Origin: an uncultured Eubacteriales bacterium
GTDB lineage: Bacteria > Bacillota > Clostridia > Lachnospirales > Lachnospiraceae
Length of the DNA stretch: 64,000 bases
NCBI GenBank assembly: GCA_949292785.1
Contig: CASFBK010000008.1
Coordinates: forward strand, 1 to 64,000
Direction: 5' to 3'
Notes under the pieces: model-generated
Told to the model about the DNA's origin: nothing
Database searches by the model: none
The model's input: only the letters and a program-made list of their open reading frames with translations
Program-made: the position numbers and the translations under genes
Shown here: piece after piece, positions 19,243 to 42,247 of the stretch
Position numbering within the stretch: the first letter of the stretch is position 1
Layout: each line of letters begins with the position of its first letter

Positions 19243-22200
19243 TTACTGTACCTCACTTTTATTATTCTTTTCAGCTAAAATAGCATCACATTTTTCACAC
19301 ATTTCATTTACCTTAACATGCCGGAATATTTTCTGCTCTAATAACAATACTCTGACTCTGTCAATTAGGAATCCTACCGCATATACCCATATTACTACTG
19401 CAATAACAATGAGTACAAAAATTCCGCTTTCGTACCATTCTTCGGTCCGAATTATCTGTTTCCATAACACATATCTGAAAAAATTATGGTCATGAATCAG
19501 TAAAATTCCAAATGTTCCAGTTGCTAAATAATTTATCAATGGATATTTCTTCATTTTGATATTCTTAAAAAAGAAGAAAAATGCAAATCCACCGACTAAA
19601 TTTGTGATAGAAGATTCATCACACATCGTGCTCATGATATAACTTAAAACAGGATTTCCCGGATTCAGAATCCAGCAATATCGTATCATCCACAATCCAA
19701 TCCAGATTCCTATAAAAATAGTGAGCATTAATTTTTTATTATCACATATTTTCCAAGGCCACCGTTTTAAATTCAATGCAATTACATAACACAATATGAA
19801 CAGCAGCAATTCACTGCTAAGCGGCTGATAATAAGAGTTAAAGCAACCGATAATCTGAGACCCAACCTCAAAATATAATAGCAGCACTAACAGCCATCTT
19901 GCCTGCCGCTTCGTCACCTTGCCGGAAATATAAGTCAAAAACGGCAGCAATAAATAAAAAGCAAGGTAAGATGCTGCAAAGCCATGGGAATTTCCTGTAA
20001 TAGGTAAAAGTGTACTCAGCCAGTTTTTAAACGTAAATCCGGTTCCAAAACCATATGCTATTATAGCAAATGTTACAGAATAGAACAGTACCTGTAACCA
20101 TACTTTTAAAAATCGCTTCGTACGAAACTTCTGGTCTACCAAAAACCAACAACTCATTGCCAGAAAACTGTCAAAACACAATTTCCCCCCTGGAATCAAA
20201 AACAAAGAAAATATTCTATTCTGACTCATTCCCTGCATTTCAAATGCTCCACCATGCAGAACACAGTGATGCGCAACAATTAACAGCATACAGATGATAC
20301 GACACAACTCAATATTAGAATCTCTTACGATACTATTGTTTTGCCGCCCTCTTACTCTCCGTACTCCCCACAATAGTCCTGCCAATACAAGAATTGCCGT
20401 ACCACCTACCAACAGACATTCTTTCAATGTCATCTGAAAGTATTTGTTTTCTATCCGGATGGATTCTAAATGAAAGGCTTCTCCCTCTGACCATCCGATT
20501 GCCAAACGGAACTCCTTAACATTCTCTTCCTCCATATCATACCGCACCGTCAGATTCTCATTGTCAGGCCACTGTACCATGGAATTTTCCTCGTTAAATC
20601 CACTGCCATCAGAATCGTAAGATAACTGTACTCGCAATCCGCCATCGGAATTCGCCATATAATCAATCGAACTAAAACGAATCTCTACCTTTGATACAAC
20701 AGACAATGTATTCTGCCATGTCATACTCGGCTTATTCTTGCTTACCAAAAAACTTTGTCCGTCTATGGTGTATCCCTGGGTATCCATTTCAGAAAATTCT
20801 GTGATATTTTCTACCTCGCCTTTTATATAAGTAGAAGGACGTATTACACCTATCGTAACAGCTGATATGGATAACGCAACTACAATATAGCCGAAACCTT
20901 TTAATAAGCTTCCCATTGCTTTTTGTACTTTTGCATTATGTATCACCCTCAGTATTCCCTCGCCTGACTTTTTCAAAATGCGTTCCAGTTTTTCTATCAA
21001 GAAACCTGCTGTTTTCCACAGTATCAGCACCAGAATCAGCCCCGCCAGGGATAACATCCCTCCTATTTTAAGTGCTTTTGGCTCATATCGCAGTTCCACT
21101 TCATGCTCCCCTTCGCCTATCCGGACGCCCAGCAGGGACACATTTACTTTCTCTGTAGCAACTTCTTTTCCATCTACATAAGCATGCCAGTCTTCATCAT
21201 ACGGCATAGATAAGGACAGATATTCTGCTCCCTCCTGCACCTCTATACGAAATGACACTTTATCTTCAAAAAAGCTGATTAACTCAAATTTCTCCTGCTT
21301 TTCCTTTGCCAGCTCTGTCAGCCTTTTCTCACTCTTGGCCAAAGAACTTCCCGTTGTATCTATCCCATCTACAATGGTATATTCCAATAATGCATAAGCT
21401 TTCTCCTCATCGGACAGCTTCCGAAATTCTTCTAAAGACATAAGTTTCTCGTTGACAAATGCCAGCGGATAGTAATTCTTATTTTCATATACGCTGATAC
21501 CATTACGGCTGTTTAAATAAGTAAAATATTCCGGAAGCTCACTATCTGTCTGGTCTGTTATAAAATATTTTACTCCCAGATAGCTCTGAAGATAATATCT
21601 GTCTCCTACACCATCGATATAATTTAAGTTGCTTCCAATTACCTCTTCTGGTTCAATTCCGTTTTCCAGGTAATACGGGATAGATATCGGGCAGGCTACA
21701 AAAACGCCTAACTCCTGCAAAAAAGCTGTATAATTGGCATTATTTACAGAATTATAACTTTTTAATCCGTAATATTGTTGTACCATAGCATCGTTTTCGG
21801 AAGGAATTTCATTTACATCTACTACGGAATCAAAGGTTTTGTTGATTCGATAAAAAGAATCATCCTCTGCCTGAATCTCCTTTATCAGTTCTGCACTGGT
21901 ATCCTCATAGCTCGTTTTTTCAGCTTCGCTGTAATCACTTACCGATTGTTCTATTCCATACCAGTGATAATAGTTAATGCCTTCATCTATCAATATAATT
22001 CCTGCAACAAGAATGCAAATTGCCCATTTTCTCATACCAGCCCTACTATTTTCCCGTTGCAGTATATAAATCACACACATTAAAGCATAAAGTCCCAGCA
22101 ACGCAACAAAAAACTTTCTTGCCTGGTACAAATAAACGGTAAACTGCGCACCAAACTCGTTTCCTCCTGCAGACAAAGCCATCATTCCAAGTATCATAAT

Positions 22201-23409
22201 CAATCCACTTGCAATGATTCCCCAAAACAGACTTTTCCCGTGAATTCCTTTGTTCCTGATAACAGAGTCAATGGATAGACCAATCAACACACATTCCAAT
22301 ATGGTTACTATAAACATCCATCTGGCACTAACCGTAGCAAATGCATTCAACACAAAAGAAAATACAGGGAATAATATCATAATTGAAATTAACACTGTAA
22401 CTAAAATAAGATTTTTTCTATTCTTTTTCTCATAATGCCAGTACTGCATTGCCAATATTATAAGAAAAGAACTGGTGTAGCATGATACCTGAAAATAATC
22501 CATTATTCCAAAATAAGTATAACCTATGTATTCTCCGGTCAAAGGATTATTTAGTATATCTCCACACAAAGCTCTTATTATGGCGGTTACCCACACTTTT
22601 ATCTGGGGAATCCAAAGCGACAAACCAGTCTGTACGTCCTTTGCTCCCGCTACTCTTGCACTGGCCAATGTTAATTGAATCTGCGGAAGCAACGCCACCG
22701 AAGATAACAATATAACAACAACTGCCACACCCAGCAATACGAATAATTTAGGAATAGGATTGATTCTTCGCTGATATAACCTCACGCAAACGTATAACGC
22801 TGTCAACAGCCCTAAAACAAAAAAGAAATAATAAGAATAAATACAAGTTAAAAACAAGCCCAGCAATAATGTACGCAATTTTCCTGTATCCAGCCATTTT
22901 TCTACACCAAGAAAAACAATAGGCGCATATACCAGTATGGTTCCTAACGCAAAATTACTTCCCATAATCAGAGAATATCCGCTAAATGCATACAATAGCG
23001 CTGCAATCAAACTTGCCTTTCTATCTAATTTGAAATAATCCAGATACGAAAAAAAGGCTGCACCTTCACAAACCAGTTTTGCAACAAACAGCCATATCAT
23101 CATATGAGGAATATAATCTCGACCAAAGATAAATAATATATAGGTAAATGGGTCAAAATATACATCCGCATGGGTAAACATACTGGTTCCAATTCCCATC
23201 TGCCAGGACCAGAAAAATCCGCCCTCTGTAATTGCATCATACATATGATAATAAGTTGGCAGATTAGCCCTCAACAAATCCGATAATACACCTTTAGACA
23301 TAAAATAATATCCATCCAAAATATACTGACGGAGGATAACCACCGCCAGTACCAAAATTCCGGCTATTATTGCAATATACCATCTACCTGTTTTTAACTT
23401 TGCTCTCAT
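19243..23409 (-). CDS. YfhO-type GT-C membrane protein fused to an AT3 acyltransferase
   Basis: 1388 residues, far longer than YfhO proteins (about 850) because an acyltransferase is attached. Residues 1-1015 have a YfhO-like layout: a first helix, an outer loop with VLSD44LLRANLP, about twelve further helices, a large extracytoplasmic domain (about 470-800), a helix near 805-825 and another outer beta domain. Residues of about 1031-1370 form an AT3 (OafA-like) domain of about ten helices with the family Arg1037 (ELCRIICMLL) and His1047/His1048 (VAHHC). YfhO of Bacillus glycosylates teichoic acids from a lipid-phosphate sugar; AT3 domains move acetyl groups onto glycans. The fusion suggests a sugar added and acetylated by one machine (inference). 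AGGAG precedes the ATG. Confidence 0.8.
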   Translation of the reverse strand: MRAKLKTGRWYIAIIAGILVLAVVILRQYILDGYYFMSKGVLSDLLRANLPTYYHMYDAITEGGFFWSWQMGIGTSMFTHADVYFDPFTYILFIFGRDYIPHMMIWLFVAKLVCEGAAFFSYLDYFKLDRKASLIAALLYAFSGYSLIMGSNFALGTILVYAPIVFLGVEKWLDTGKLRTLLLGLFLTCIYSYYFFFVLGLLTALYVCVRLYQRRINPIPKLFVLLGVAVVVILLSSVALLPQIQLTLASARVAGAKDVQTGLSLWIPQIKVWVTAIIRALCGDILNNPLTGEYIGYTYFGIMDYFQVSCYTSSFLIILAMQYWHYEKKNRKNLILVTVLISIMILFPVFSFVLNAFATVSARWMFIVTILECVLIGLSIDSVIRNKGIHGKSLFWGIIASGLIMILGMMALSAGGNEFGAQFTVYLYQARKFFVALLGLYALMCVIYILQRENSRAGMRKWAICILVAGIILIDEGINYYHWYGIEQSVSDYSEAEKTSYEDTSAELIKEIQAEDDSFYRINKTFDSVVDVNEIPSENDAMVQQYYGLKSYNSVNNANYTAFLQELGVFVACPISIPYYLENGIEPEEVIGSNLNYIDGVGDRYYLQSYLGVKYFITDQTDSELPEYFTYLNSRNGISVYENKNYYPLAFVNEKLMSLEEFRKLSDEEKAYALLEYTIVDGIDTTGSSLAKSEKRLTELAKEKQEKFELISFFEDKVSFRIEVQEGAEYLSLSMPYDEDWHAYVDGKEVATEKVNVSLLGVRIGEGEHEVELRYEPKALKIGGMLSLAGLILVLILWKTAGFLIEKLERILKKSGEGILRVIHNAKVQKAMGSLLKGFGYIVVALSISAVTIGVIRPSTYIKGEVENITEFSEMDTQGYTIDGQSFLVSKNKPSMTWQNTLSVVSKVEIRFSSIDYMANSDGGLRVQLSYDSDGSGFNEENSMVQWPDNENLTVRYDMEEENVKEFRLAIGWSEGEAFHLESIRIENKYFQMTLKECLLVGGTAILVLAGLLWGVRRVRGRQNNSIVRDSNIELCRIICMLLIVAHHCVLHGGAFEMQGMSQNRIFSLFLIPGGKLCFDSFLAMSCWFLVDQKFRTKRFLKVWLQVLFYSVTFAIIAYGFGTGFTFKNWLSTLLPITGNSHGFAASYLAFYLLLPFLTYISGKVTKRQARWLLVLLLYFEVGSQIIGCFNSYYQPLSSELLLFILCYVIALNLKRWPWKICDNKKLMLTIFIGIWIGLWMIRYCWILNPGNPVLSYIMSTMCDESSITNLVGGFAFFFFFKNIKMKKYPLINYLATGTFGILLIHDHNFFRYVLWKQIIRTEEWYESGIFVLIVIAVVIWVYAVGFLIDRVRVLLLEQKIFRHVKVNEMCEKCDAILAEKNNKSEVQ

Positions 23410-23430: not shown

Positions 23431-24489
23431 TTATCTTAACTTGTTAAACACGTATTCAACAGCCTTTTCAATCTCATCTCTTTTCACATCATGAACGATA
23501 TTAAGTTTCATATCATCTTTCATAAGAACTGCTGTCAATTCTTTTCCAACCTGTTTTTTATCTTTGTGAATTGCACTGATAACTTCATCCATATCCACCT
23601 CAATGTGCTTTGCATCGATATGGATAATCTTCCATAATATATTCTCTACACGAAGTACTTTATCCTCTGACAGCCATCCTCGCGAAAGGGAAATGCGGTT
23701 TGCCACAATCGTTCCCATGGCAACTGCGGTACCATGAGGAATGGCATAATTACTCATAGTCTCAAAAGCATGTCCAAAGGTATGTGCAAAATTCAAATGG
23801 ATACGCACACCTCTATCAAATTCATCCTCTTCAATAAAATCCTTTTTAAACGCCAAAGAACTCTCTACAAACTCTTCTAACTTACTATCTTCCCGTCTTA
23901 ATAATGCATCAATGTTCTGTTCCATTTTAATTATTCCGGCTTCTCCAAACATCACATTGAACTTTACTACCTCTCCTAATCCACTCTGGAAATCCTTTTC
24001 GGACAGTGTTTTAAAGAATGGAGTACAGATAATAATTTCATCCGGAGGATAAAAGGTTCCTAATAAGTTCTTAAACTTCTTATAGTTCAAGGAAGTCTTT
24101 CCCCCAATACAACTATCGCAGGCAGCCAAAAGAGTGGTAGGGAAGAATGTCCAATGAATCCCCCGATACAGTATATTTGCCACAAATCCTGTTACATCCT
24201 GCACGATTCCTCCACCAAGAGAAATTAATTGTGCATTTCTCTTAGCCGGAATATTTGTCATAATCTCACATATTTCCAACGCGGTCTCGATTTTCTTATT
24301 CTCTTCTACCGCCTCTAAAATATACATCTGCTCCTCTGGGATTGCTGAGAACAATTCTTTCCCATATAATTCATACAGATTTTTATCTATTACCACAAAT
24401 GTATTTTTGTCTATATTCAGGCACTTTACTTTTTCAAAATTACTATAAATGTCAACTTTATAATCTTTTGTACTGGACTTAATTATCAT
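23431..24489 (-). CDS. 3-dehydroquinate-synthase-like sugar phosphate cyclase (AroB superfamily)
   Basis: 352 residues from MIIKSSTK; the ATG overlaps the upstream TGA in an ATGA junction. Visible motifs are GGG92-94 with DVTGF, PTTLLAACD125-SCIGGK131, K140-N141-LLG, LGE173-VVK176, R229-IHLNFAH236-TFGH240 and H252-GTAVAMG. Spacing matches the DHQ synthase metal ligands (Glu173, His236, His252) and most substrate-binding residues of the Aspergillus enzyme; the position of its Glu260 is Asp225. The reaction class is NAD-dependent oxidation, phosphate elimination and cyclisation of a seven-carbon keto-acid phosphate. Other shikimate genes are absent nearby and it is coupled to a short-chain dehydrogenase inside the CDP-sugar block, so a role in making an unusual carbocyclic or rearranged sugar is suspected; a displaced true aroB cannot be excluded. 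Confidence 0.8.
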   Translation of the reverse strand: MIIKSSTKDYKVDIYSNFEKVKCLNIDKNTFVVIDKNLYELYGKELFSAIPEEQMYILEAVEENKKIETALEICEIMTNIPAKRNAQLISLGGGIVQDVTGFVANILYRGIHWTFFPTTLLAACDSCIGGKTSLNYKKFKNLLGTFYPPDEIIICTPFFKTLSEKDFQSGLGEVVKFNVMFGEAGIIKMEQNIDALLRREDSKLEEFVESSLAFKKDFIEEDEFDRGVRIHLNFAHTFGHAFETMSNYAIPHGTAVAMGTIVANRISLSRGWLSEDKVLRVENILWKIIHIDAKHIEVDMDEVISAIHKDKKQVGKELTAVLMKDDMKLNIVHDVKRDEIEKAVEYVFNKLR

Positions 24490-25151
24490 TTCTCCGCAAA
24501 ACCTCCATCTACTGTTATTTTCTGTCCCGTTAAATAGGTATTTTGTTCGCTGCACAGAAAATAAACTACTTCTGCGATTTCCTTTGGCTCTGCCATTCTT
24601 CCCATGGGAATATCCTTTGAAATAGCTTCAATCTCTTCCTGTGTATTATTTTTTCTGGTCAGCTCTGTCAAGGTAAATCCGGGACACACGGTATTTACCA
24701 AAATATTATCTGCTGCAAGCTCTACTGCAAGTGTATTGGTTACTCCGTGGATACCATTTTTAGTTGCACTGTATACACAGCGTCCCCCTTTTGATACCAC
24801 TGCCCAGATAGAACCGATATTTACAATTCTTCCGTAGTGGTTCTTTTTCATCATACCTGTAAATCCACGCAGTATCTTTATGGGTGCCACAAGATTTGTC
24901 GCCATCATACGCTCCAGCTCATCATCCGTTATCTCTTCTATGGCATGTATATCATTAATGCCTGCATTATTAACAATAACGTCAAAGTATACCTCTTTAT
25001 TCTTGTTAATATATGCTTCTATTGATTCTGCACTTGTCAAATCAAGCTCTTGTCTACTTGGTGTAATCACCTCATAGCCACACGCCTGAAACTTCTCTGA
25101 AATTGCCTTGCCAATTCCTCTGGAACCACCAGTTATCAATGCTCTTCTCAT
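24486..25151 (-). CDS. Short-chain dehydrogenase/reductase
   Basis: 221 residues from MRRALITGG, with AGAGGTGAC properly spaced; a longer in-frame start lacks a site. Classical SDR features: nucleotide-binding ITGGSRGIG, VNNAG at about 77-81, catalytic Ser in IVNIGSIW, Tyr-x-x-x-Lys in CVYSATKNG, and a C-terminal LTGQKITVDGGF as in FabG-type enzymes. It would reduce or oxidise a carbonyl with NAD(P)H. Its translation is coupled to the AroB-like gene and it lies four bases after a GT2 gene, so it probably acts on the sugar made by this block rather than in fatty acid synthesis. Confidence 0.87.
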   Translation of the reverse strand: MRRALITGGSRGIGKAISEKFQACGYEVITPSRQELDLTSAESIEAYINKNKEVYFDVIVNNAGINDIHAIEEITDDELERMMATNLVAPIKILRGFTGMMKKNHYGRIVNIGSIWAVVSKGGRCVYSATKNGIHGVTNTLAVELAADNILVNTVCPGFTLTELTRKNNTQEEIEAISKDIPMGRMAEPKEIAEVVYFLCSEQNTYLTGQKITVDGGFAEK

Positions 25152-25155
25152 ATTG

Positions 25156-26115
25156 TCACCTCTCTGCAGCTTCTTCTTCCTCTGTATCAAAGTTAATTCG
25201 CTCTTCTTCCACTACCATAGGCCGCTTTGTTACTTTTGTCAAAATAGCGCCTATATATTCTCCAATGACACCCAAAAAGGCAAGCTGAACAGAACCAAGT
25301 AAGAACATTCCAATCAAAATTGGTGCTGTTCCCATATTAAATTTATACCAATTCAGCAGCTTCATTACCAGATATACGATTGCTATGGCAAAGCTGAAAG
25401 CAGACATAATAAATCCGCACATAGTTACAATACGCAAAGGTTTTCTGGATACATGGGTCATTCCGGTAATTGCAAAATCAAAATATTTGCTGAAATTGTA
25501 ACTGGACTTTCCTACTTTCCGCTCCTGCTGCGTATATTCCACCAAACACCACTTATACCCTAACTGTGTCACCAGTCCGCGAATATATGGATCCGGGTCG
25601 TCCATCCATTTAATCATATCCAGCACTTCCCGGTCAAACAATCCATATCCCGTTACGTTCTTCAAGTGTTCTGTCTCTGACAAGGCATTCATGATTCCAT
25701 AATACAACTTCCGAATCTGAAACATAATGGGATTTTCTTTGCTCTTGGTCTTCTGGCCCATTACTACCTTATATCCTTCTTCCCACTTTTCTAAGAAGGT
25801 TGGTATCATTTCCGGCGGATCCTGCAGGTCACATACAATACAAATCACTGCTTCTCCTGTTCCCTGCAACATTCCATAGGAGCCAGAACGATTCGGTCCA
25901 AAATTTCTTGCATTCAGTATCACTTTTACATTCTTGTCTTTATGTGCCAAAGCGCGGAGAATTTCTCGCGAATGGTCTGTGGAATAATTATCAATAAATA
26001 TATGCTCATATGTGTATTGTGGCAGCTTATCAAACTGTTCCTTTACAGCCTGATAAATATTCATGATATTTCCCTCTTCGTTGTAACAAGGAGTCATTAC
26101 CGATATATGCCTCAT
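25156..26115 (-). CDS. GT2 polyprenyl-phosphate sugar synthase (DPM1/GtrB-like), copy B
   Basis: 319 residues: GT2 N-terminus with SVMTPCYNEEGNI, donor-binding motif in CIVCDLQDP, and two membrane helices near 235-260 and 270-292. It pairs naturally with the GtrA protein encoded three genes upstream: GtrB makes the undecaprenyl-phosphate sugar and GtrA is thought to help flip it. The ATG overlaps the preceding stop as ATGA. Because it is embedded in the CDP-sugar block, it is the best candidate to load that unusual sugar onto the lipid carrier (inference). Confidence 0.88.
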   Translation of the reverse strand: MRHISVMTPCYNEEGNIMNIYQAVKEQFDKLPQYTYEHIFIDNYSTDHSREILRALAHKDKNVKVILNARNFGPNRSGSYGMLQGTGEAVICIVCDLQDPPEMIPTFLEKWEEGYKVVMGQKTKSKENPIMFQIRKLYYGIMNALSETEHLKNVTGYGLFDREVLDMIKWMDDPDPYIRGLVTQLGYKWCLVEYTQQERKVGKSSYNFSKYFDFAITGMTHVSRKPLRIVTMCGFIMSAFSFAIAIVYLVMKLLNWYKFNMGTAPILIGMFLLGSVQLAFLGVIGEYIGAILTKVTKRPMVVEEERINFDTEEEEAAER

Positions 26116-27032
26116 TTATTTTCTCCTTTATACCATTCCATTGTTCTTCTGATGCCTTCTTCAAAGTCAACTTCTGGTACAAATCCTGTATCTTCTGTTA
26201 ATTCGCTGATATCAGCAGTAAGTTTCATTACCTGATTCGGATAATATTCTCTTTCTCCAATACCAATTTCAAGTTCCGGATTCACTACGTCACGAATAGC
26301 AGTAATATATTCTCTTAATAACCTACTTTTACCGGAGCCAATGGTATATGCCTTGCCATGCTTTCCATATTTTCCTATCAGGTAGAAGGCTCTGGAACAA
26401 TCACCGCCATATACATAATCCCAAATCTGGTCCCCCTTTGTAAAACTCATTCTTTCTCCCTTCACCATACCAATAACACTGGACATCACCATCGTATAAC
26501 TATTATCCCGCGGTCCGTAAGTGCTGACGATTCTCCCCCATGATTGGCGCATTCCAAGTCTTGCACACATAACTGCGCTCAATTTCCCCGCAGTATACTT
26601 CGCAATACCATATCCTGTAACAGGATTCTTGGGTACGTTATCCGACAACTCGCCCTCTACAAATCCAAATTCTGCCTGAGAGCCAGCCCCTACAAATACT
26701 TTGCACCCAACATGATGAGCCAACTCCACTGCCTCCAATGTATTGCGCACATTTTTTTCCTGAAGCATTGCATCATCCCGGCTGTCACCGTATGTACCAT
26801 CCCAGGCAAAGTGATAGAAAGTATCATAATCTTTCTCCAAGCTTCCTTTTAAGCTTAACAAATTATCAATGTCACACTCAATCACTGTAACATTTGCATG
26901 TTCTATCAAGTTATTTCTTTTTTTAGAATTTGGCCGTATCACGGCTGTAACTTTAATATCATCACTTACCATTTGTTCAATCATGGATGCTCCAATCATA
27001 CCGGTTGCACCTGTTACAAGCACTTTTTTCAT
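26112..27032 (-). CDS. NAD-dependent epimerase/dehydratase (extended SDR)
   Basis: 306 residues with the Rossmann glycine motif VTGATGMIG, DIDN acidic cofactor region, and catalytic Tyr-x-x-x-Lys in VTGYGIAKYTAG. The substrate half (GPRDNSYTMV, SYGG-like YVYGGDCSRAF) resembles NDP-sugar 4-reductases and epimerases. AGGAG is well placed. Flanked by a GtrB-like GT2 and the TPP enzyme, it presumably reduces or epimerises the CDP-4-keto intermediate; the exact position acted on cannot be told from sequence. Confidence 0.83.
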   Translation of the reverse strand: MKKVLVTGATGMIGASMIEQMVSDDIKVTAVIRPNSKKRNNLIEHANVTVIECDIDNLLSLKGSLEKDYDTFYHFAWDGTYGDSRDDAMLQEKNVRNTLEAVELAHHVGCKVFVGAGSQAEFGFVEGELSDNVPKNPVTGYGIAKYTAGKLSAVMCARLGMRQSWGRIVSTYGPRDNSYTMVMSSVIGMVKGERMSFTKGDQIWDYVYGGDCSRAFYLIGKYGKHGKAYTIGSGKSRLLREYITAIRDVVNPELEIGIGEREYYPNQVMKLTADISELTEDTGFVPEVDFEEGIRRTMEWYKGENK

Positions 27033-27063
27033 TTACTTACTCCTATCTGCGTGGAAATCTTTA

Positions 27064-28869
27064 TTATTCTTCGTATTTTACTTCTTTGTTCTCTAAATAT
27101 TCTTCTCTTGAAAGGAATGGAGATAAGTCGTCGATTGCCGGCGATACAATCTTTCCATCAGGTAATACTTTTGAGGATAACTTTGGCTCAAAGAACTGTG
27201 CTTTATCCAGCATAACCTCACAGATAACAGGTCCATCCTGATTAATTACCTTCTGTACAGTCTCATCGATAGCATCCACTACACCGATTCTATAATACGG
27301 AATTCCATATGCATAAGAAATCTTTTCCATATCCGGGAAACTAACACCGTTTTCTTTATTAACGCCTGCCAGTGCTCCCTTAAATAAATTACTCTGGGTC
27401 TGACGCATCGAATGATAACCATCATTATTTAATAAAAAGATTTTAACATTTGCATTGTTATACACAATAGTCTGCAATTCCTGTAAATTCATCTGAATAC
27501 TTCCATCACCATCCAGACAAATAACTCTGTCCCCGTGTTTTGCAAAGCTTACTCCCAAAGCTGAAGGCACACCATAACCCATGGTAGCACATCCTGAATT
27601 TGTAAATAATCTGGTGCCTTTCTTAATTACAGCCGCCTGAAAAGAAATAACACATGCAGAACCATTTCCGGTTACTACCGTTTCATTTTCATCCAGATTT
27701 TCAAATAACTTGTGCATAAATACATATGGATTTATCGGCGCCTGTTGCTCATAATATTCCGGTAATGCTGCCGGATATTTTGCATCTGTCTTCCGGCACC
27801 ACTTTGCCCACTTGGCATGTTCTTCATTATGATTTTCAAATCCGCTTTCCAACAATGCATTTAGTACATCCTTCACATCTGCATGAATTGGCAAATCAGG
27901 ATGTATTGTATGTTTCTTCAATTCTTCCCCGTCAATATCTACAATAATTTTATATGCGTCTTTTGCAAAATCATCATAGTTATAACTAATCTGACGAATA
28001 TTCAACCGGCATCCCAAGCTGATTAAAAGATCACAGTTTTGAACAACAAAGTTTCCTCCTCGTGTTCCTATTGTTCCGGGACGTCCTGCATACATTGGAT
28101 GTTCATCCCAGATAACATCATGCGCATTCCATGCTGTAACTACCGGAATATTCAGCTTGTCTACAACCTTTATAAATTCTTCTCTGGCATTTCCCAGACG
28201 AATGCCTGTACCGGCTAAAATAACAGGACGTTTTGCTTCCTTGATTTTCTGGATGATTTTTTCTGTGTTGCTATCATCATAAACAACTTTTTCTGTATCT
28301 TCTTTTGCTACATCAAAATGTACTAATTCATCGGTATCAATAATTGCCGCCTGAATATCAAGAGGAATGTCCAGCCATACAGGGCCTCCTCTTCCCTTCT
28401 TACACAGATATAACGCTTTTTCCAAATGGTATGCTATTTCATTTGCTTCATCAACAAATTTAGCATATTTCGTCATCGGAGCAACGCAATCTGTAATATT
28501 AAATTCCTGGTCTCCAATCTGTCTTACTTTGGCATCTGTAGCATGAATCGTTGTGATTCTTTTTACCTGTCCGGAAACAACAAACATAGGAACTGAATCC
28601 AGCCATGCCCCAAGCACACCAGTAAGCGCATTGGTTCCACCCGGACCACTTGTCACACACACCAACGGAAGCTTTCCCGAATAACGCATGTAACCTTCAG
28701 CAGCAATCGCACATGCCTGCTCATGATGATTAAATACGCACTTCAGACCTTCCTTGTGAGTAAATGCATCATCCAGATGCATTGCACCTCCTCCTGTAAT
28801 AAGAAAACAATGTTCTATGCCATTTTTCACGAAGAAATCTGCCATATATTCTGCCACTTTCATTTTCAT
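27064..28869 (-). CDS. TPP-dependent enzyme, acetolactate-synthase-like
   Basis: 601 residues with the three-domain layout of the pyruvate oxidase/acetohydroxyacid synthase family. The catalytic glutamate is Glu50 in FNHHEQACA; VTSGPGGTNALTG follows at about 73-86; the C-terminal TPP/Mg site is the GDGS...NN motif at about 452-480. There is no separate small regulatory subunit gene and no other branched-chain amino acid gene nearby, which argues against housekeeping acetolactate synthesis. In yersiniose synthesis a related TPP enzyme (YerE) adds a two-carbon unit from pyruvate to a CDP-4-keto sugar; the nearby CDP-glucose genes make a similar chain-extension or branching step plausible here. 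Confidence 0.85.
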   Translation of the reverse strand: MKMKVAEYMADFFVKNGIEHCFLITGGGAMHLDDAFTHKEGLKCVFNHHEQACAIAAEGYMRYSGKLPLVCVTSGPGGTNALTGVLGAWLDSVPMFVVSGQVKRITTIHATDAKVRQIGDQEFNITDCVAPMTKYAKFVDEANEIAYHLEKALYLCKKGRGGPVWLDIPLDIQAAIIDTDELVHFDVAKEDTEKVVYDDSNTEKIIQKIKEAKRPVILAGTGIRLGNAREEFIKVVDKLNIPVVTAWNAHDVIWDEHPMYAGRPGTIGTRGGNFVVQNCDLLISLGCRLNIRQISYNYDDFAKDAYKIIVDIDGEELKKHTIHPDLPIHADVKDVLNALLESGFENHNEEHAKWAKWCRKTDAKYPAALPEYYEQQAPINPYVFMHKLFENLDENETVVTGNGSACVISFQAAVIKKGTRLFTNSGCATMGYGVPSALGVSFAKHGDRVICLDGDGSIQMNLQELQTIVYNNANVKIFLLNNDGYHSMRQTQSNLFKGALAGVNKENGVSFPDMEKISYAYGIPYYRIGVVDAIDETVQKVINQDGPVICEVMLDKAQFFEPKLSSKVLPDGKIVSPAIDDLSPFLSREEYLENKEVKYEE

Positions 28870-28886
28870 CTTTTTTCACTCCAATC

Positions 28887-29390
28887 CTATTCCGTTTCTC
28901 CCTGCTTTTCACTCCGAAAAGCCCATAGTTTATTAAGTATAAAATTAACTGGCGTTGTTATAAACAAGTTAATAACCGGTCCCCAGAATGCATTAATGTG
29001 CAGCAAATCATTCCAAAGGAACAGCAGAACATTTGTTAGTAAGAGTCCCGAAAAACCATAAGACATAAATGTCTTGCACAAGGCATGTATTGTGGAACGC
29101 TTTTCATCCTTTGCTTTTGTAAAAACATAGCGATTATTCCAATAAAACGAATTCAAAACACTAACTACAAAACCAGCTATGCTTCCTACCAGCCAATGAA
29201 ATCCAACGGCAAGACATAACGCGTACACAATATATGAAATCAAAAAATTTGAGATTCCTACAAAAGTAAATTTTACAAATTGTATTAATGTTGTCCACTG
29301 CCTTTCTGATAATTCTATTTTTAGAACTTTAAGGCAAGCCGTTACTATTGCTCTTATGAACTTTTCAAAATATACCCATACTTTTTCCAT
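28887..29390 (-). CDS. GtrA-family membrane protein
   Basis: 167 residues with four hydrophobic helices and the family pattern FVKFTFVGISNFLISYIVY, GFVVSVLNSFYWNNRYVF and a short charged loop. GtrA proteins are small membrane partners of GtrB-type transferases and are thought to flip undecaprenyl-phosphate-linked sugars. It starts five bases after the aldolase-like gene without a clear ribosome site, suggesting coupling. It most likely serves the GT2 encoded three genes downstream. Confidence 0.88.
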   Translation of the reverse strand: MEKVWVYFEKFIRAIVTACLKVLKIELSERQWTTLIQFVKFTFVGISNFLISYIVYALCLAVGFHWLVGSIAGFVVSVLNSFYWNNRYVFTKAKDEKRSTIHALCKTFMSYGFSGLLLTNVLLFLWNDLLHINAFWGPVINLFITTPVNFILNKLWAFRSEKQGETE

Positions 29391-29395
29391 ATCAT

Positions 29396-30991
29396 CTAAA
29401 TATAAAGAGAATCTGTAATAAATTCCATCTTTATCTCATTCTTTATTACTTTCAACACTTCGGCTACATACTGATTTAATGCTTCTGCCTGCTCTTCATT
29501 AAAATTATATTCCATATCAGGATTGATATAATTCTGCTTTGTATCACCAATATATCCATCAAAGCCCGCTAATGCCACTTCACCTACTCCAATACGCTTC
29601 ATCACTTTTAAAAGCATAATAAAAGAGTTATCTATAATTTCTGCTTCTTCATCCAAAAGCGTACTGTATTTTAAGGTATACTCAAACTTTCCACTGGTTT
29701 TTGTCACATTTGATGTCGCTATCACCTTAAGCTCTTCCGGCTTTCTTGATAACAATGTTGCAAGCTGAACATAACGTTTGGAATTACTCAAAAAGATATA
29801 ATCAGTATCAAATTCCTTTGCAACAAAATTTACAGATACTACAATAGGATGGTTCTTTTCTATATATTCCTTAATCACAGCATCCTGTCTTTTAATATTC
29901 AGTCCAGGACCTACAAGCAATACTTTTCTGCCTTCAAATGCTTTTTTCAATCCCTCGATATCTGCCTTATCGTCCACATCTATATCCTGATATTCTTTAT
30001 ACAACTGCTCGATATAATTTTTATCATACAGCAGCTTCTTTTCCCCTTGCAGCTTTCCTAAAATCTCATTAATTGACTTAACGGAAAGTGTACGCTTGTC
30101 CATCAAATCGGACACATAATTGGGGTGGCAGTCATTGGATGCCGCCAAATAGAAAAACATATTATATCCCCAGGTTGCCGGCGTATAGAAATTCATAATA
30201 TTAGAGTCGATTGCTTCTAGGAACTGGCTAATATGATAATTCTTTCCATATCTGTCATTTAAATGCATCGCAATAAGCTCAATCGGTGCATTTCCGGCAC
30301 TTTTTCCCATTCCATAAATGGTGCCGTCCACAAGTAACATACGTTCTGTTTTCTGGGACAGCATCTCAATACAGTTTGCATACCCCATCTGAAAATTATT
30401 ATGCGCATGATACCCTATTCCAATTTCCGGAAGTAAGTTTTCATTTAACAAATCAAAATAGTGTTTTAAATTATTCTGATGCATCAATCCATAGGTATCC
30501 ACCATAGATACCGCATACGGTTTCACCTCATTTGCAATACGAATTAAATCCATCATTTCTTCATCTTCATAGCTGGTTACTGATACAAGCTGTGCAAACA
30601 CTTTGTATCCCAGCTTCTTCAATTCTGCACAATACGCCATTGCCTCTTCCCGCAAATGCTTTTTGAAAATAACACGAATAGCATCCAAAAAAGATTCTTC
30701 ACAGGGTTTAATATTTTTAATATCGCAGGTTCCATAATCAATCATACCGACAATGATTGCCTGCTTTTTCTCTAAATCCCCATATATCTTTCTAACACAA
30801 TCTGTATCCGGCATAATACTGCGATTAATATCAAAAGGTCTTCTGTCATCTAAAAAGCCGACCTCTATCATATCAACCCCTGCATCTACCAGGCGTTCAA
30901 AAATGCTTACAAGATTATTATGCCCAAAGTTCCAGTCATTCACATAGCCACCATCACGCAAAGTACAATCTAATAACTTTATTTCACCCAT
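29396..30991 (-). CDS. HMGL/DRE-TIM-type aldolase with an extra C-terminal domain
   Basis: 531 residues. Residues 1-270 are a DRE-TIM metalloenzyme barrel: LLD8CTLR12-D13-GGY binds metal and enolate, GYH195-AH197-NNFQMGYAN supplies metal histidines, and VDGTIYGMGKSAGN closes the site. Relatives include 4-hydroxy-2-oxovalerate aldolase and HMG-CoA lyase. From about 354 to the end there is a separate alpha/beta domain (RKVLLVGPGLNIKRQDAVI, DTDYIFLSNSKRY, VALAGFDGYIG) with a Rossmann-like glycine motif that I cannot assign. Lying between the CDP-glucose dehydratase and the TPP enzyme, it may cleave or form a carbon-carbon bond during synthesis of an unusual sugar. AGGAG precedes the ATG. Confidence 0.83.
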   Translation of the reverse strand: MGEIKLLDCTLRDGGYVNDWNFGHNNLVSIFERLVDAGVDMIEVGFLDDRRPFDINRSIMPDTDCVRKIYGDLEKKQAIIVGMIDYGTCDIKNIKPCEESFLDAIRVIFKKHLREEAMAYCAELKKLGYKVFAQLVSVTSYEDEEMMDLIRIANEVKPYAVSMVDTYGLMHQNNLKHYFDLLNENLLPEIGIGYHAHNNFQMGYANCIEMLSQKTERMLLVDGTIYGMGKSAGNAPIELIAMHLNDRYGKNYHISQFLEAIDSNIMNFYTPATWGYNMFFYLAASNDCHPNYVSDLMDKRTLSVKSINEILGKLQGEKKLLYDKNYIEQLYKEYQDIDVDDKADIEGLKKAFEGRKVLLVGPGLNIKRQDAVIKEYIEKNHPIVVSVNFVAKEFDTDYIFLSNSKRYVQLATLLSRKPEELKVIATSNVTKTSGKFEYTLKYSTLLDEEAEIIDNSFIMLLKVMKRIGVGEVALAGFDGYIGDTKQNYINPDMEYNFNEEQAEALNQYVAEVLKVIKNEIKMEFITDSLYI

Positions 30992-30994
30992 TCT

Positions 30995-32056
30995 TTACTC
31001 CTGTCTATCTTTTATAAATTCATTTATCTGCCTGTCCATACATGCAGAAATATCTCCGTGTGCCAAATAAACCTTAGACCACTCCACCGTTTTTTCAACC
31101 GCTTCCTCCACTCCCCAGCGTGGTTTCCATCCAAATGTCTTTTTTATCTTGGAGCAGTCTAATTTCAAAAAGTTTGCCTCGTGGGGTCCCCCATCATATT
31201 GATTCACCCACTTCATTCCTTCTCCCCATTTTAGGCAGAACAAATCCACCAGCTGACCAGTAGTAATACAATCCCTGTCATCTGGGCCTACATTATAAAA
31301 TCCAGCATATTTTTTATCTTCATACTGTGCTTTTGCAATCGTCAGATATATCATCAAAGGTTCCAGCACATGCTGATATGGTCTGGTGGAATGTGGATTA
31401 CGAACCACAATATCTACTCCCTTTTGTGCAGCACGTACACAATCCGGAATGATTCTGTCATTCGCAAAGTCACCTCCGCCAATAACATTTCCGGCTCTTG
31501 CTGTCGATACTGCCACCTCCATATCGCAATAGAAAGAATTGATATAACTATGTGTCACCAACTCAGAGCAGGATTTACTATTAGAATATGGGTCATATCC
31601 ATCCAATGGCTCATTTTCTCGATATCCCCATTCCCACTCGTTATTCTTATAAACCTTATCCGTAGTTACATTAATAAAAGATTTTACACAAGAATTCATT
31701 CTGACACATTCACAGATATTCACCGTTCCCATAACATTTGTTTCATAGGTATAAACAGGGTCTTTATAAGAATCGCGTACAATCGGCTGTGCTGCCAAAT
31801 GTAATACGATTTCCGGCTGTGTCTCCTGAAATACTTTCATCAGTTCTTCTCTGTTTCTGATATCACCGATGACAGAATTCATTCTTCCTTCCACATCACA
31901 CAACGAAAACAAATTAGGATTCGTAGGCGCCTCCAGCGAATATCCCGTCACCTCTGCTCCTGCATTCACCAGAATTTTGCATAGCCAGGTCCCTTTAAAA
32001 CCAGTATGCCCGGTAACCAATACTCTCTTTCCATTATAAAAGCTTAAATCTAACAT
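30995..32056 (-). CDS. rfbG: CDP-glucose 4,6-dehydratase
   Basis: 353 residues from MLDLSFYNGKR, with GGGAG eight bases upstream and the previous stop one base away; longer in-frame starts run into the neighbour. Extended SDR with VLVTGHTGFKGTWL, NVTTDKVY, and Tyr-x-x-x-Lys in YDPYSNSKSCSE; the GHTGFKG variant is typical of RfbG rather than RfbB. It converts CDP-glucose to CDP-4-keto-6-deoxyglucose, using the product of the next gene upstream. No E1 dehydrase (RfbH/AscC) follows, so the classic 3,6-dideoxyhexose route is not encoded here. Confidence 0.93.
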   Translation of the reverse strand: MLDLSFYNGKRVLVTGHTGFKGTWLCKILVNAGAEVTGYSLEAPTNPNLFSLCDVEGRMNSVIGDIRNREELMKVFQETQPEIVLHLAAQPIVRDSYKDPVYTYETNVMGTVNICECVRMNSCVKSFINVTTDKVYKNNEWEWGYRENEPLDGYDPYSNSKSCSELVTHSYINSFYCDMEVAVSTARAGNVIGGGDFANDRIIPDCVRAAQKGVDIVVRNPHSTRPYQHVLEPLMIYLTIAKAQYEDKKYAGFYNVGPDDRDCITTGQLVDLFCLKWGEGMKWVNQYDGGPHEANFLKLDCSKIKKTFGWKPRWGVEEAVEKTVEWSKVYLAHGDISACMDRQINEFIKDRQE

Positions 32057-32057
32057 C

Positions 32058-32840
32058 CTATTTCTCCCATACCATCCATGGAGCATCCTTATCCGCAATC
32101 ATCTTCTCCAGGCTGTCCTTATCTCTCTTGGTATCCATGCATTTCCAGAACCCGCTGTGCTTATATGCTTTCAACTCACCCTTTGCTGCAATTTTCTCTA
32201 ACGGGTCTTTCTCAAAAACAGTTTCATCTCCGTCAATATAATCAAATATCTCAGGTTCTAAAACCATATAGCCTGCATTAATTACTTGTCCATCTCCCTC
32301 ATTCTTCTCACGAAACCGATTAATCGTACCATCCTTATCTATCTCAATAACACCAAATTGCTGTCCGATATTAACTGCTGTCATAGTGGCAATCTTGCCA
32401 TGAGACTGATGAAACTTTAATAATTCTGCGATATTTACGTCGGATACCCCATCTCCATACGTCAACATAAATGTATCATTTTCCACATAATCCCGAATCC
32501 GCTTGATACGTCCCCCTGTCATTGTATTCAGCCCGGTGTCAACTACTGTAACCCTCCAGGGTTCTACCACATTGCTATGCACTTCCATAGCTCCATCTTT
32601 CCGAAAATCAAAGGTAAGGTCACTATTATGCAAATAATAATTCGCAAACCATTCTTTAATTATATGCTGCTTATATCCTGCACATATAATAAAATCGTTA
32701 AACCCGTAATATGAATATTCTTTCATAATATGCCACAAAATAGGCTTTCCACCTATATCAATCATTGGTTTTGGTCTCAGATGACTTTCTTCGCTGATTC
32801 TTGTTCCAAACCCACCTGCAAGTAATACAACTTTCATCAT
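32058..32840 (-). CDS. rfbF: Glucose-1-phosphate cytidylyltransferase
   Basis: 260 residues, the standard length. The nucleotidyltransferase signature LAGGFGTRISEESHLRPKPM, KPILWHIMKEYSYYG, and LTYGDGVSDVNI are diagnostic of RfbF-type enzymes that use CTP and glucose-1-phosphate to make CDP-glucose. AGGAG is seven bases from the first of two ATGs. With rfbG directly downstream it commits carbon to the CDP-sugar block. The 71-base upstream gap shows no promoter I would trust, so it is probably part of the long transcript. Confidence 0.95.
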   Translation of the reverse strand: MMKVVLLAGGFGTRISEESHLRPKPMIDIGGKPILWHIMKEYSYYGFNDFIICAGYKQHIIKEWFANYYLHNSDLTFDFRKDGAMEVHSNVVEPWRVTVVDTGLNTMTGGRIKRIRDYVENDTFMLTYGDGVSDVNIAELLKFHQSHGKIATMTAVNIGQQFGVIEIDKDGTINRFREKNEGDGQVINAGYMVLEPEIFDYIDGDETVFEKDPLEKIAAKGELKAYKHSGFWKCMDTKRDKDSLEKMIADKDAPWMVWEK

Positions 32841-34722: not shown

Positions 34723-37002
34723 TTAACGTAAAAGCTTATTTTTAATTCGTCTTAGAATATTCTTTCCCCGAAGCTTTTTATACAATTCCTCTGCTCTGTC
34801 CGCTGTTATATGGTCAATCACATCTGTCTCTATCACAATATTCTTAACAGGTATTTTCTCCGGTAATTTGAAATACAGCTGCGGATCCGGTCCCAGAAAT
34901 ATCATTTCGTCCTTCAGCATCATTCCATTTGTAATGGCATCTTTTGATGAAAATTCCAGCACTTTCTCATTGAACATGGTAACTTTAACATCAAGTGCTT
35001 TTATAATAATGCCAGATTTTTCTCCCGGGTCCCATCTTATTTCACTTACGCTTCCAAACTTTTCAAGACCTTTATAAGCATATATATTTTCATCGGTTTC
35101 GTTTTCTACCGAAACAGTATGCTCTTCACTGTAACCAGCATCTGTCTTCAGATAAAGTTTTGCCTGAATAATACTTCCTTCCGTATAGCCGAGGGCAGAA
35201 CGGCACATTCTCCATTCGATAAATGTTTTTTGCATATTCCGTGCCACTTCTTCATATTTTCCCGCACCCGGTCCTGCTTTAAATATAGATGTATTTAATC
35301 CCCGAAGCATATAGTTTAAATTGGTAATCTCCATTGCTGCACCATGGGAAGAAAAAATCCATCCCGGATAATACCCCTCTTGCTGCACAACATAACTATA
35401 AATACGCTCTATTGCATGCAAAAGAGTACCATCTACCTTATTCGGCTCCGGTGGAAAATCTTTATACTCCCAGTCTTTTTCAAACAAAAGCTTCATTGCC
35501 TGTGGTCTAAACCAGAACATAGTACCAAGAGGCGCTATCGGTTCTTTCTCTCTGGATATAGGTACTGTAAGATTCAACTTTTCAGCCAGCTTCTTAGTTA
35601 CTTTGTAATTTAATCCCCATTCCATTCCCAGGGTAATATAATAATCACCGTGGCATGGTGGCGGCGGTGTCAGTAATCCGATTCTTGGATTTCGTTCAAA
35701 GGTATCTAATACATTTTCTACAAATTCTTTCGTCGGAAGGAGATTCTCAAAACATTTATAAGAAAAGCCTGCTCCAATCGTCTCTGGCTTTAGCTGTACT
35801 ACTTTCTTATCGTGTACAAAACACACATAATCATAATCCATAATAAACTTCTTTGTCCCTACCAACAAAGCGCTTACATCACGACCACGATTTTCAATCA
35901 AAATAACTTCTACCTTATTCGGTAATTCTGAAAATGTTTCTTCAATTATTTTTTTCTTCTGTTCATCCCCAACAGTAACATAAATATCTGCTTCTTTCGG
36001 CAATGACTTCATATAATGCAGGCAGTAATCCGCCAATTCCGTGAAATAGAAATGCAAAACAAGTGCTATCTTTCGCTTACCCAGAATCTCTGAGATGTCC
36101 TTTCCATTTCGCTCATCAATAACGTAATTTAACTGCATATTCTTTTTTATATCTGCCTGATTTTCCAATCGCAGAATATTGTCCCAAATCATGTTTACAT
36201 CATAATCTGTATATTTATCAATATATTCATATGCTTCGTACGCACTTTCCCCCATAGTGTCATTAATAATATTGGTATAATCCTGGAAAAAGGACCGTCT
36301 CTTAAAAATAGGACATCTTTTCTCTTCTAACATCTGTCTGGTAGCACACAAAATAGGGTGATTATTATATCCTTCACCCATATCAGCATATACATCCCAC
36401 AAAAAACCTGCTTCTGAAAATTTTCTGGTAAATATTGCTTCGTGACACCCTACCGCTTCGCGATAATCATTTATTTGCTGCATGTTATTCCAATACTCTT
36501 GAAACTCAATACTGCGAAGCATACGACTACGTACTGCAATAAAATGAGATTGGATATGTTCCGGAATATATCCATATACAATGGTTCCAAATGGGTCTCC
36601 CTCTTTGTACTCATGATATTTGGTAATTCCCCAGAAGTCTAAATCCTTAGCATCCATCTTTTCAAACATCTCTTTTAACGGATAAATCGGACCCATTATC
36701 GTATAATTCATCATAATGACTTCATCATATTTACAGAGTTTTTCCCAGCCATAATAGTCTAATACGCTCTTATACGCCCATACATCCAATCCTTTGTTTT
36801 CACGAACCATAATAATCGGTGTGACTTCTTCTAACTTTTTTCTGCTCTCCGGAGTCAACATTCCATTACATACCACTGCTATTTCCGTAGCATTATTCTT
36901 TAAATCTTTTAGCATATATGTGATATAGTCGTCCACAATGCCCTGCTTATCAAAAATAAAATATATAATTAAACGCTTTACTTCTTTGCTTTGCAATATC
37001 AT
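34723..37002 (-). CDS. RgpF-type rhamnan synthesis protein with duplicated domains
   Basis: 759 residues. Two related RgpF-like regions can be seen: about 10-250 (RLIIYFIFDKQGIVDDYI, ENKGLDVWAYKSVL, FWGITKYHEY) and about 310-600 (ALVLHFYFTELADYCL, ENRGRDVSALLVG, APLGTMFWFRPQAM). Both keep the ENxGxDV motif. Residues after 620 form a beta-rich tail. In streptococci RgpF extends the polyrhamnose backbone, together with RgpA/B. Here it directly follows the ABC exporter genes, as in rhamnan loci, and argues that the main chain is rhamnose-rich. GGAGTAGAAGG precedes the ATG. Confidence 0.85.
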   Translation of the reverse strand: MILQSKEVKRLIIYFIFDKQGIVDDYITYMLKDLKNNATEIAVVCNGMLTPESRKKLEEVTPIIMVRENKGLDVWAYKSVLDYYGWEKLCKYDEVIMMNYTIMGPIYPLKEMFEKMDAKDLDFWGITKYHEYKEGDPFGTIVYGYIPEHIQSHFIAVRSRMLRSIEFQEYWNNMQQINDYREAVGCHEAIFTRKFSEAGFLWDVYADMGEGYNNHPILCATRQMLEEKRCPIFKRRSFFQDYTNIINDTMGESAYEAYEYIDKYTDYDVNMIWDNILRLENQADIKKNMQLNYVIDERNGKDISEILGKRKIALVLHFYFTELADYCLHYMKSLPKEADIYVTVGDEQKKKIIEETFSELPNKVEVILIENRGRDVSALLVGTKKFIMDYDYVCFVHDKKVVQLKPETIGAGFSYKCFENLLPTKEFVENVLDTFERNPRIGLLTPPPPCHGDYYITLGMEWGLNYKVTKKLAEKLNLTVPISREKEPIAPLGTMFWFRPQAMKLLFEKDWEYKDFPPEPNKVDGTLLHAIERIYSYVVQQEGYYPGWIFSSHGAAMEITNLNYMLRGLNTSIFKAGPGAGKYEEVARNMQKTFIEWRMCRSALGYTEGSIIQAKLYLKTDAGYSEEHTVSVENETDENIYAYKGLEKFGSVSEIRWDPGEKSGIIIKALDVKVTMFNEKVLEFSSKDAITNGMMLKDEMIFLGPDPQLYFKLPEKIPVKNIVIETDVIDHITADRAEELYKKLRGKNILRRIKNKLLR

Positions 37003-37745: not shown

Positions 37746-37785
37746 CTGCTTTTCCTTCCTTGAATCTCATGTCATACATAACACT

Positions 37786-39134: not shown

Positions 39135-39153
39135 TTTTCTTTCTCCATTCTGC

Positions 39154-39990: not shown

Positions 39991-40010
39991 TATAATAATT
40001 CCTCCATCAT

Positions 40011-40889: not shown

Positions 40890-40931
40890 TGTAAAACCTC
40901 CTAAATATACATGCTTATACATAATCGTCTT

Positions 40932-40960
40932 ATTTTACCACTTTTTTTTTAAATGTTCAA
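40932..40960 (-). promoter_or_regulatory. Promoter upstream of rfbA
   Basis: TTGAAC, a 17-base spacer rich in A, and TAAAAT on the minus strand. The -35 overlaps the stop codon of the preceding membrane protein gene. The start point would fall about 36 bases before the rfbA ATG. It probably drives rfbA through the exporter and beyond, since no terminator is evident for many genes downstream. Confidence 0.7.
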
Positions 40961-42228: not shown

Positions 42229-42247
42229 ACTCCCATCTTTCTTCACC

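Follow-up and report, generated by a model that had tools for sequence, protein, structure and literature searches.

A gene block that may build a carbocyclic, C4-branched CDP-sugar in an uncultured Lachnospiraceae bacterium

A block of nine genes with the makings of a branched cytidine diphosphate (CDP) sugar pathway lies in a 64,000-nucleotide stretch (the window; positions 1 to 64,000 of contig CASFBK010000008.1, assembly GCA_949292785.1) from an uncultured Eubacteriales bacterium of the Lachnospiraceae. All nine genes are on the minus strand, and in the order of transcription they are rfbF, coding for glucose-1-phosphate cytidylyltransferase (32058..32840); rfbG, coding for CDP-glucose 4,6-dehydratase (30995..32056); an HMGL-type pyruvate aldolase with an extra C-terminal domain (29396..30991; PF00682, 89 bits); a GtrA-type membrane protein, a putative flippase for a lipid-linked sugar (28887..29390; PF04138, 76 bits); a thiamine diphosphate (ThDP)-dependent enzyme resembling YerE, ErwE and JanthE, and a putative C-C ligase acting onto a 4-keto sugar (27064..28869); a protein of the NAD-dependent epimerase/dehydratase family, a putative CDP-sugar keto-reductase or epimerase (26112..27032; PF01370, 119 bits); a GtrB-type family 2 glycosyltransferase (GT2), a putative polyprenyl-phosphate transferase (25156..26115; PF00535, 86 bits); a FabG-like short-chain dehydrogenase/reductase (SDR), a putative reductase of a post-cyclisation ketone (24486..25151; PF13561, 156 bits); and an AroB-like sugar phosphate cyclase (23431..24489; TIGR04425, 443 bits against a cut-off of 400). 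The tight packing, the family assignments and the two 4-base overlaps described in a sequence-only reading of this DNA are all borne out by the open reading frames (ORFs) and profile searches. The overlaps are those of the epimerase-family and GtrB genes and of the SDR and AroB-like genes, and the remaining intergenic gaps are 1 to 31 bases long. Start codons were picked by comparison with relatives and from the upstream sequence, the likely ones being ATG at 32056 for rfbG (the longest ORF would begin with TTG at 32098), at 25151 for the SDR gene and at 24489 for the AroB-like gene. The rfbF and rfbG products score above the cut-offs of curated equivalog models (TIGR02623, 387 bits against 300.25; TIGR02622, 441 bits against 278.45), in agreement with the earlier assignment of the pair to synthesis of CDP-4-keto-6-deoxyglucose.

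Matches to TIGR04425, a model for an AroB-related putative sugar phosphate phospholyase (cyclizing), are present in 2 of 391 class genomes (E ≤ 1e-90) and, at E ≤ 1e-95, in 4 of 397 family, 1 of 29 genus and 1 of 348 phylum genomes, the source genome being counted each time; the samples overlap, and more divergent members would escape. A scan of public genome contigs with two peptide patterns yielded seven loci, five of them true relatives; the other two, L010 and L011, have housekeeping-type aroB genes (29–33% identity; that of L010 is beside an ORF read as aroA) and were dropped. Nine distinct AroB-like loci are compared here: the window, L005–L009, with L005 as the closest relative, and L030–L032 (L004 and L009 look like one locus and are counted once, and genome G033 apparently carries the same locus as L009). 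The L031 and L032 proteins are under the TIGR04425 cut-off (340 and 332 bits), yet group with the other AroB-like proteins with a support of 0.999 in an 18-sequence tree.

A ThDP gene and a pyruvate-type aldolase gene are found in all nine AroB-like loci, and are no more than 2.5 kb apart in any of them, so that the three genes constitute a co-conserved module, as the sequence-only reading had suggested. Co-conservation of all nine genes, which it had also envisaged, does not hold, as rfbG is found in five and the GtrB gene in six of the nine loci. Eight of the aldolases are of the HMGL type (the L031 copy is cut by the contig end), and that of L009 is of the unrelated HpcH/HpaI type (PF03328, 40.5 bits against 25); the swapping in of an unrelated aldolase at one locus suggests that it is the aldol product, and not the protein itself, that is needed. 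The SDR gene is present in eight loci, and missing from L030, whose contig soon ends; a best-hit homologue of the epimerase-family gene is present in seven, and also in L067–L071 and L073, which belong to the AroB-less loci described below. By comparison, none of four housekeeping-type aroB loci examined with the same panel (L002 and L003 with about 1.5 kb on each side, L010 and L011 with more) has ThDP and aldolase neighbors, and the association of these two genes with the AroB-like gene (9/9 against 0/4) is more than chance. In none of the eight AroB-like loci besides the window does a gene of the cytidine monophosphate (CMP)-sugar synthetase type appear at up to 7 kb from the aldolase gene. 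We also note an FGGY sugar kinase gene separating the AroB-like and ThDP genes of L032 (positions 8071-9408 of that locus), which could supply an aldose phosphate, and a small protein nearby (5046-5498) that reads as VOC-like.

The AroB-like protein of the window scores 271.9 bits with the aroB model TIGR01357, under its cut-off of 305. Thirteen of 14 dehydroquinate synthase sites, including zinc ligands and substrate contacts, are kept in all nine AroB-like proteins, and the remaining one, E260, is D in eight of them, including that of the window; for site numbers and roles we follow the A. nidulans dehydroquinate synthase, in which K250 and R264 are presumably the residues binding the carboxylate of 3-deoxy-D-arabino-heptulosonate 7-phosphate (DAHP). 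In an annotated 2-deoxy-scyllo-inosose synthase (DOIS) and two heptulose-phosphate cyclases, respectively, R264 is replaced by A, K and A, N268 by E, D and D, and K356 by N, V and W, and of these three positions only R264 differs in another cyclase, from Streptomyces. Judged by these residues, the AroB-like enzyme looks active and its substrate looks DAHP-like. A search of plasmids with the AroB-like protein returned 115 records, all below 60% identity; the 60 listed are 24–36% identical, and the named ones among them are aroB, other cyclases and one alcohol dehydrogenase.

Among solved structures the ThDP enzyme is closest to 8rph (422 bits, against 240 for acetohydroxyacid synthase [AHAS]), and it falls short of the acetolactate synthase model TIGR00118 (365.9 bits; cut-off 538). 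The 8rph sequence carries a CDG motif where other sequences have GDG, and as a CDG motif is printed for JanthE, 8rph appears to be JanthE. K567 of JanthE is named as important in the abstract of PMC12188165, and the corresponding position, mapped with a presumed offset of one, is K in eight and R in one of the nine ThDP enzymes encoded at the AroB-like loci; the residue aligned with JanthE P293 is R in seven of the nine. According to the available part of another report, ErwE accepts hydroxylated 2-oxo acids and not pyruvate (PMC12247030). Pyruvate itself is probably not the donor for the ThDP enzyme of the window; a phosphorylated 2-oxo acid with a longer chain, supplied by the aldolase, is more likely. 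The ThDP enzymes of L005 (7544-9352) and L030 (4848-6680) belong to another subclade, which may mean a different donor. In a plasmid search with the ThDP enzyme, only AHAS-type proteins are seen among the 15 matches listed out of 1637.

The aldolase meets the broad PF00682 profile but not the 4-hydroxy-2-oxovalerate aldolase model TIGR03217 (87.3 bits against a cut-off of 286), and its nearest Protein Data Bank (PDB) entries are 3dxi and 4-hydroxy-2-oxovalerate aldolases. A full-length structural model is poor (mean predicted local distance difference test [pLDDT] 67), matching aldolase barrels and saying little of the second domain. Modeled alone (pLDDT 82), the C-terminal domain (approximately residues 335–531; 29396-29989) resembles archaeal HPPK (nearest entry 8sd5) and SteA, matches from which no function follows; an initial guess of a sialyltransferase-like fold was given up on this result. 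More informative are the genomic partners. An aldolase profile matched 31 of the 391 class genomes at E ≤ 1e-60, the source genome included, and 31 loci besides that of the window were surveyed, a gene split in two being counted once; partner genes were called by blastp, with Pfam bearing out the call for four proteins of the CMP-synthetase type and four of the HAD type. A CMP-synthetase-type gene adjoins the aldolase gene (within 100 bases) in 16 of these loci, and a ThDP gene is within 3 kb in 12, with no locus scored for both; treating the loci as independent, although they are not, gives a probability of 3e-6 for this lack of overlap. Three loci, L082, L096 and L097, belong to neither group, L096 having a weak CMP-synthetase-type match (29%) 5.7 kb from the aldolase gene that was not counted as adjoining. 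L095, included in the CMP-type group, contains in addition split ORFs whose best match is AHAS. Of the 16 CMP-type loci, 11 have a HAD or KdsC-like gene no farther than 7 kb away. Such a split is expected if the aldolase product is a 3-deoxy-2-ulosonate phosphate, which could be activated with cytidine triphosphate after dephosphorylation or fed, as a 2-oxo acid, to a ThDP enzyme, and a phosphorylated 3-deoxy-2-ulosonate is, from these partners, probably what the aldolase makes. Two Leisingera plasmids (L022, 10723-13725; L025, 12001-15003) have the same two-domain aldolase gene directly followed by a KdsB-like CMP-synthetase and a HAD gene, an arrangement that suggests an aldolase-based replacement for KdsA. 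Elsewhere, L092 has a 1066-residue ORF with an HMGL aldolase (6466-9666) near a split transketolase, a ThDP enzyme, RfbH, rfbG and rfbF, and a Desulfobaculum plasmid (L023, 8846-13426) has RfbH, a split transketolase, a short aldolase and a glycosyltransferase consecutively, a set that may serve a transketolase-type pathway to a different branched CDP-sugar.

Loci with closely related ThDP enzymes provide a second line of comparison. In eight of the 12 ThDP loci (L067–L073 and L078) the ThDP enzyme is at least 48% identical to that of the window, and all eight are without an AroB-like gene. In five of these (L067, L068, L069, L072 and L073) a HAD gene lies between the aldolase and ThDP genes, the slot occupied by the SDR and AroB-like genes in L006, L007 and L008. 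The presence of either a HAD gene or the SDR and AroB-like pair in the same slot suggests that the phosphate of the aldol product is probably hydrolyzed in the HAD clusters and expelled with ring closure in the AroB-like clusters. The aldolase and ThDP trees both place L008 and L072 as sisters (support 1.0), yet the slot holds the SDR and AroB-like genes in L008 and a HAD gene in L072. Because the AroB-like loci are scattered across both trees, repeated gain or loss of the SDR and AroB-like module is probable.

The earlier reading had made much of the missing E1 enzyme for 3,6-dideoxyhexoses. In the source genome (3.65 Mb, 30 contigs, 99.74% complete) we find no E1 (RfbH, NF011936) above cut-off, the top match having 130 bits against 423, and this part of the claim stands. 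What does not stand is that the absence sets the system apart, as three of the nine AroB-like loci (L006, L007 and L008) do carry RfbH; C3-deoxygenation is therefore optional in the family, and we have dropped the absence of E1 as proof of a new sugar. Given the missing E1, the product probably keeps O3. C4-branched sugars differing in the C3 hydroxyl, and a 3-O-methylated one of R. palustris, are described in a Chem Rev article (PMC9912281), so retention of O3 is not in itself new; the ErwE acceptor, in contrast, is given as a 3,6-dideoxy sugar in the available part of PMC12247030.

The surroundings of the block point to a cell-wall polysaccharide. Just 21 bases past the AroB-like gene is a gene for a YfhO-type membrane protein fused to an acyltransferase-3 domain (19243..23409, minus strand; PF09586, 232 bits; PF01757, 65 bits), a putative outer-face ligase that extends the block beyond the nine genes of the earlier description. 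A further acyltransferase gene lies upstream, so that two acyltransferase-3 proteins flank the block, and beyond it, all on the minus strand, are genes for the rhamnan synthesis protein RgpF (34723..37002; PF05045, 706 bits), which marks the likely acceptor polymer, and for the ATPase and permease of an ABC-2 type exporter (37014..38559; PF00005 and PF01061), followed by the deoxythymidine diphosphate-rhamnose genes rmlC (38568-39134), rmlA (40011-40922) and rmlB (42299-43384), with TIGR01221, TIGR01207 and TIGR01181 above cut-off. An epimerase-family gene and a DUF2142 gene are interspersed among the rml genes (38568..43384). The presence of RgpF, exporter and rml genes upstream places the block within a rhamnan-type polysaccharide locus. 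The expected genes for lipid-phosphate export are present, with GtrB and GtrA (PF04138) within the block and YfhO next to it; the GtrB-type GT2 has PgfS (NF047588) as its top NCBIfam match, yet at 206 bits is under the cut-off of 500. Two large proteins of the same locus, of 1123 and 597 amino acids (5557-8928 and 46607-48400), have zero Pfam matches at E 0.001.

From these observations we propose, at about an even chance, that the block builds a CDP-6-deoxyhexose with a carbon branch at C4, cyclizes the branch to a carbocycle and exports the product onto a rhamnose-rich polysaccharide; substrates and product alike are deduced from gene content and homology. RfbF and RfbG, as assigned by the curated models, would provide CDP-4-keto-6-deoxyglucose. 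The aldolase would condense pyruvate with an aldose phosphate, giving a DAHP-like 3-deoxy-2-ulosonate phosphate; the aldehyde is probably erythrose 4-phosphate, although its exact nature is a guess. By analogy with ErwE, the ThDP enzyme would decarboxylate this 2-oxo acid and attach the remainder to the C4 ketone, leaving the branch with a ketone adjacent to the sugar and a phosphate at its other end. The AroB-like enzyme would then carry out dehydroquinate synthase chemistry on the branch, oxidizing it transiently, eliminating the phosphate, reducing it again and closing the ring by an aldol reaction at the ketone, after which the SDR may reduce the resulting ring ketone, and the epimerase-family protein may add one reduction or epimerization. 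GtrB would load the sugar onto polyprenyl phosphate, GtrA would flip it, and the YfhO protein or a GT87 protein would transfer it outside, the parts of GtrB, GtrA and YfhO being those we take to be usual for their families. In several sister clusters a HAD phosphatase would take the place of the AroB-like and SDR steps, and the branch would stay open. We place cyclization after the ThDP step with moderate confidence, because a ThDP gene is present in all nine loci and a CMP-synthetase gene in none of the eight scanned, and because a ThDP enzyme could not use a dehydroquinate-like acid as its donor. The narrower proposal, that the cyclase closes a phosphorylated C4 branch installed by the ThDP enzyme on the nucleotide-linked sugar, giving a sugar joined through a C-C bond to a cyclitol, with HAD and cyclase plus SDR as exchangeable modules that would determine if the surface sugar is open-chain or carbocyclic, is a tentative one that we put a little short of evenly balanced.

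A number of observations weigh against this proposal. The exchange of modules is not regular: L070, L071 and L078 have neither a phosphatase nor an AroB-like gene, and L005 has both an AroB-like gene and a KdsC-like phosphatase (TIGR01670, 142 bits against 107). The SDR and AroB-like genes use the aldolase-ThDP slot in only three of the nine loci; L032 has the AroB-like gene and a kinase there, GtrB precedes the pair in the window and L005, and in the other three loci the pair is elsewhere. The L072 genes, moreover, are in split ORFs, and their rows in the two trees are partial. The ThDP enzymes of L005 and L030 are only 47 and 50% identical to that of the window. In the stretches examined for L008, L009, L031 and L032, two of which are on short contigs, there is no rfbG, and L008 has a UDP-glucose dehydrogenase-like gene in its place. 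Ring closure would consume the branch ketone, so the epimerase-family gene of seven of the nine loci needs another role. The AroB-like gene is absent from all 16 CMP-type and all 12 ThDP loci of the class sample, which alone does not therefore tie it to ThDP enzymes; the nine AroB-like loci do. Finally, all nine AroB-like proteins keep K250 and R264, a feature that favors a free ulosonate phosphate as the substrate and suits a CDP-sugar-linked branch no better, if as well.

These last two points lead to a different arrangement of the same enzymes, in which the AroB-like protein acts on the free ulosonate phosphate to give a dehydroquinate-like acid, the SDR reduces this acid to a quinate-like one, the ThDP enzyme independently transfers an acetyl group from pyruvate to the CDP-sugar, and the parts meet only in the polymer. 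The conserved dehydroquinate synthase residues, among them the presumed carboxylate binders, the absence of the AroB-like gene from the class ThDP loci and the two flanking acyltransferase-3 proteins, which could attach an acid, are all in keeping with it. We nonetheless consider it doubtful, as every AroB-like locus has a ThDP gene and none of those scanned a CMP-synthetase, profile scans recognized no acid-activating enzyme among the nine genes, and aldolase and ThDP genes occur together without an AroB-like gene in 12 of 31 loci, so that their link is independent of the cyclase. Alternatively the branch may be left uncyclized, the AroB-like protein only eliminating phosphate or isomerizing the chain to give an open, deoxygenated C-branched sugar. 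Open-chain products may well be normal in the family, as the HAD sister clusters suggest, but the compared residues of the full dehydroquinate synthase cycle are kept, and the SDR that accompanies the AroB-like gene in eight of nine loci is as expected for a leftover ring ketone; we regard this as unlikely.

Slightly more unlikely again is an ordinary yersiniose-like sugar, formed with pyruvate by the ThDP enzyme and then keto-reduced, with the aldolase, SDR and AroB-like proteins serving another pathway of the locus. While a reductase candidate is present and the closest PDB relative of the ThDP enzyme is presumed to be YerE-like, the source genome has no E1 above cut-off, and the aldolase gene keeps close to the ThDP gene, no more than 2.5 kb away in each of the nine AroB-like loci and no more than 3 kb away in 12 of the 31 further aldolase loci. 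Lastly, the AroB-like and ThDP genes could be nothing more than aroB and ilvB copies, housekeeping or in decay, that ended up in a polysaccharide locus, as the families are broad and the folds common to enzymes of primary metabolism. We reject this reading as extremely improbable: elsewhere in the source genome, two more aroB genes (388 and 356 bits; cut-off 305) and another three AHAS genes score above the thresholds that the window copies fail, and the window copies keep their active sites, the AroB-like protein falling in a supported clade. The sequence-only reading had said that it would be overturned by homologues that do not co-occur or by assignment of the two proteins to the housekeeping pathways; with these additional copies and the neighbors shared by 9/9 loci, it came through on both counts. 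Taken as a whole, that interpretation retains its CDP-sugar base, its module, its extra gene copies and its export genes, while the E1 argument and the co-conservation of nine genes fall away.

The favored reading, a branch added by the ThDP enzyme and closed by the cyclase, combines parts of several known systems. The closest are the makers of C4-branched CDP-deoxysugars, YerE, ErwE and JanthE, to which 8rph, the closest solved relative of the ThDP enzyme, appears to belong by its CDG motif; YerE and ErwE are described as acting on CDP-4-keto sugars, and the systems described belong mainly to Gram-negative lipopolysaccharide, or to a mycobacterial glycolipid, and use a 3,6-dideoxy acceptor, unlike this block. 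The AroB-like protein is of the same Pfam families as AroB and the sugar phosphate cyclases and has the conserved residues of AroB, but differs from AroB in falling under the aroB cut-off, in forming its own clade and in its setting in a sugar-nucleotide cluster, and from DOIS and heptulose-phosphate cyclases at R264, N268 and K356. Other sugar phosphate cyclases, namely DOIS, EEVS, DDGS and EboD, are named in two papers (PMC4426668, PMC5133447). In the open-access literature searched, no paper joins an AroB-like cyclase with YerE-like enzymes or such clusters, which does not exclude an earlier prediction, and none refers to TIGR04425 by name. The aldol-type condensation, KdsC and KdsB of the Kdo-type pathway have their counterpart in the aldolase relatives that adjoin a CMP-synthetase gene (16/31), the difference being that the putative ulosonate here would be decarboxylated and transferred, and not CMP-activated. 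As to the proposed product, bradyrhizose, a ten-carbon bicyclic sugar of a surface polysaccharide, and caryose are likewise sugars with a carbocyclic part. The bradyrhizose genes were called unknown in a 2016 paper that then suggested a cluster of eleven; its relevant sections give an outline, in which a dehydratase and an O-antigen ligase with homologues of rfaD/E/F close by are named, and no enzymatic route (PMC4743980). For the export side we would liken the locus, with RgpF, ABC exporter, rml, GtrB, GtrA and YfhO together, to the streptococcal systems for rhamnan side chains (GacI/GacL) and to CsbB-GtcA-YfhO glycosylation, from which it differs in that the donor would be a branched CDP-sugar.

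If the proposal is correct, a ring-forming enzyme of the type used in aromatic amino acid synthesis has been recruited for surface sugars, and the block would combine branched CDP-sugar biosynthesis, which is known, with a recruited cyclase. It would provide a concrete route to a carbocyclic surface sugar, and a candidate pathway for TIGR04425, which is putative by its very name. It would also offer a simple rule for reading such clusters, in which an aldolase with a CMP-synthetase indicates a ulosonic acid, an aldolase with HAD and ThDP enzymes an open branched sugar, and an aldolase with SDR, AroB-like and ThDP enzymes a cyclized one.

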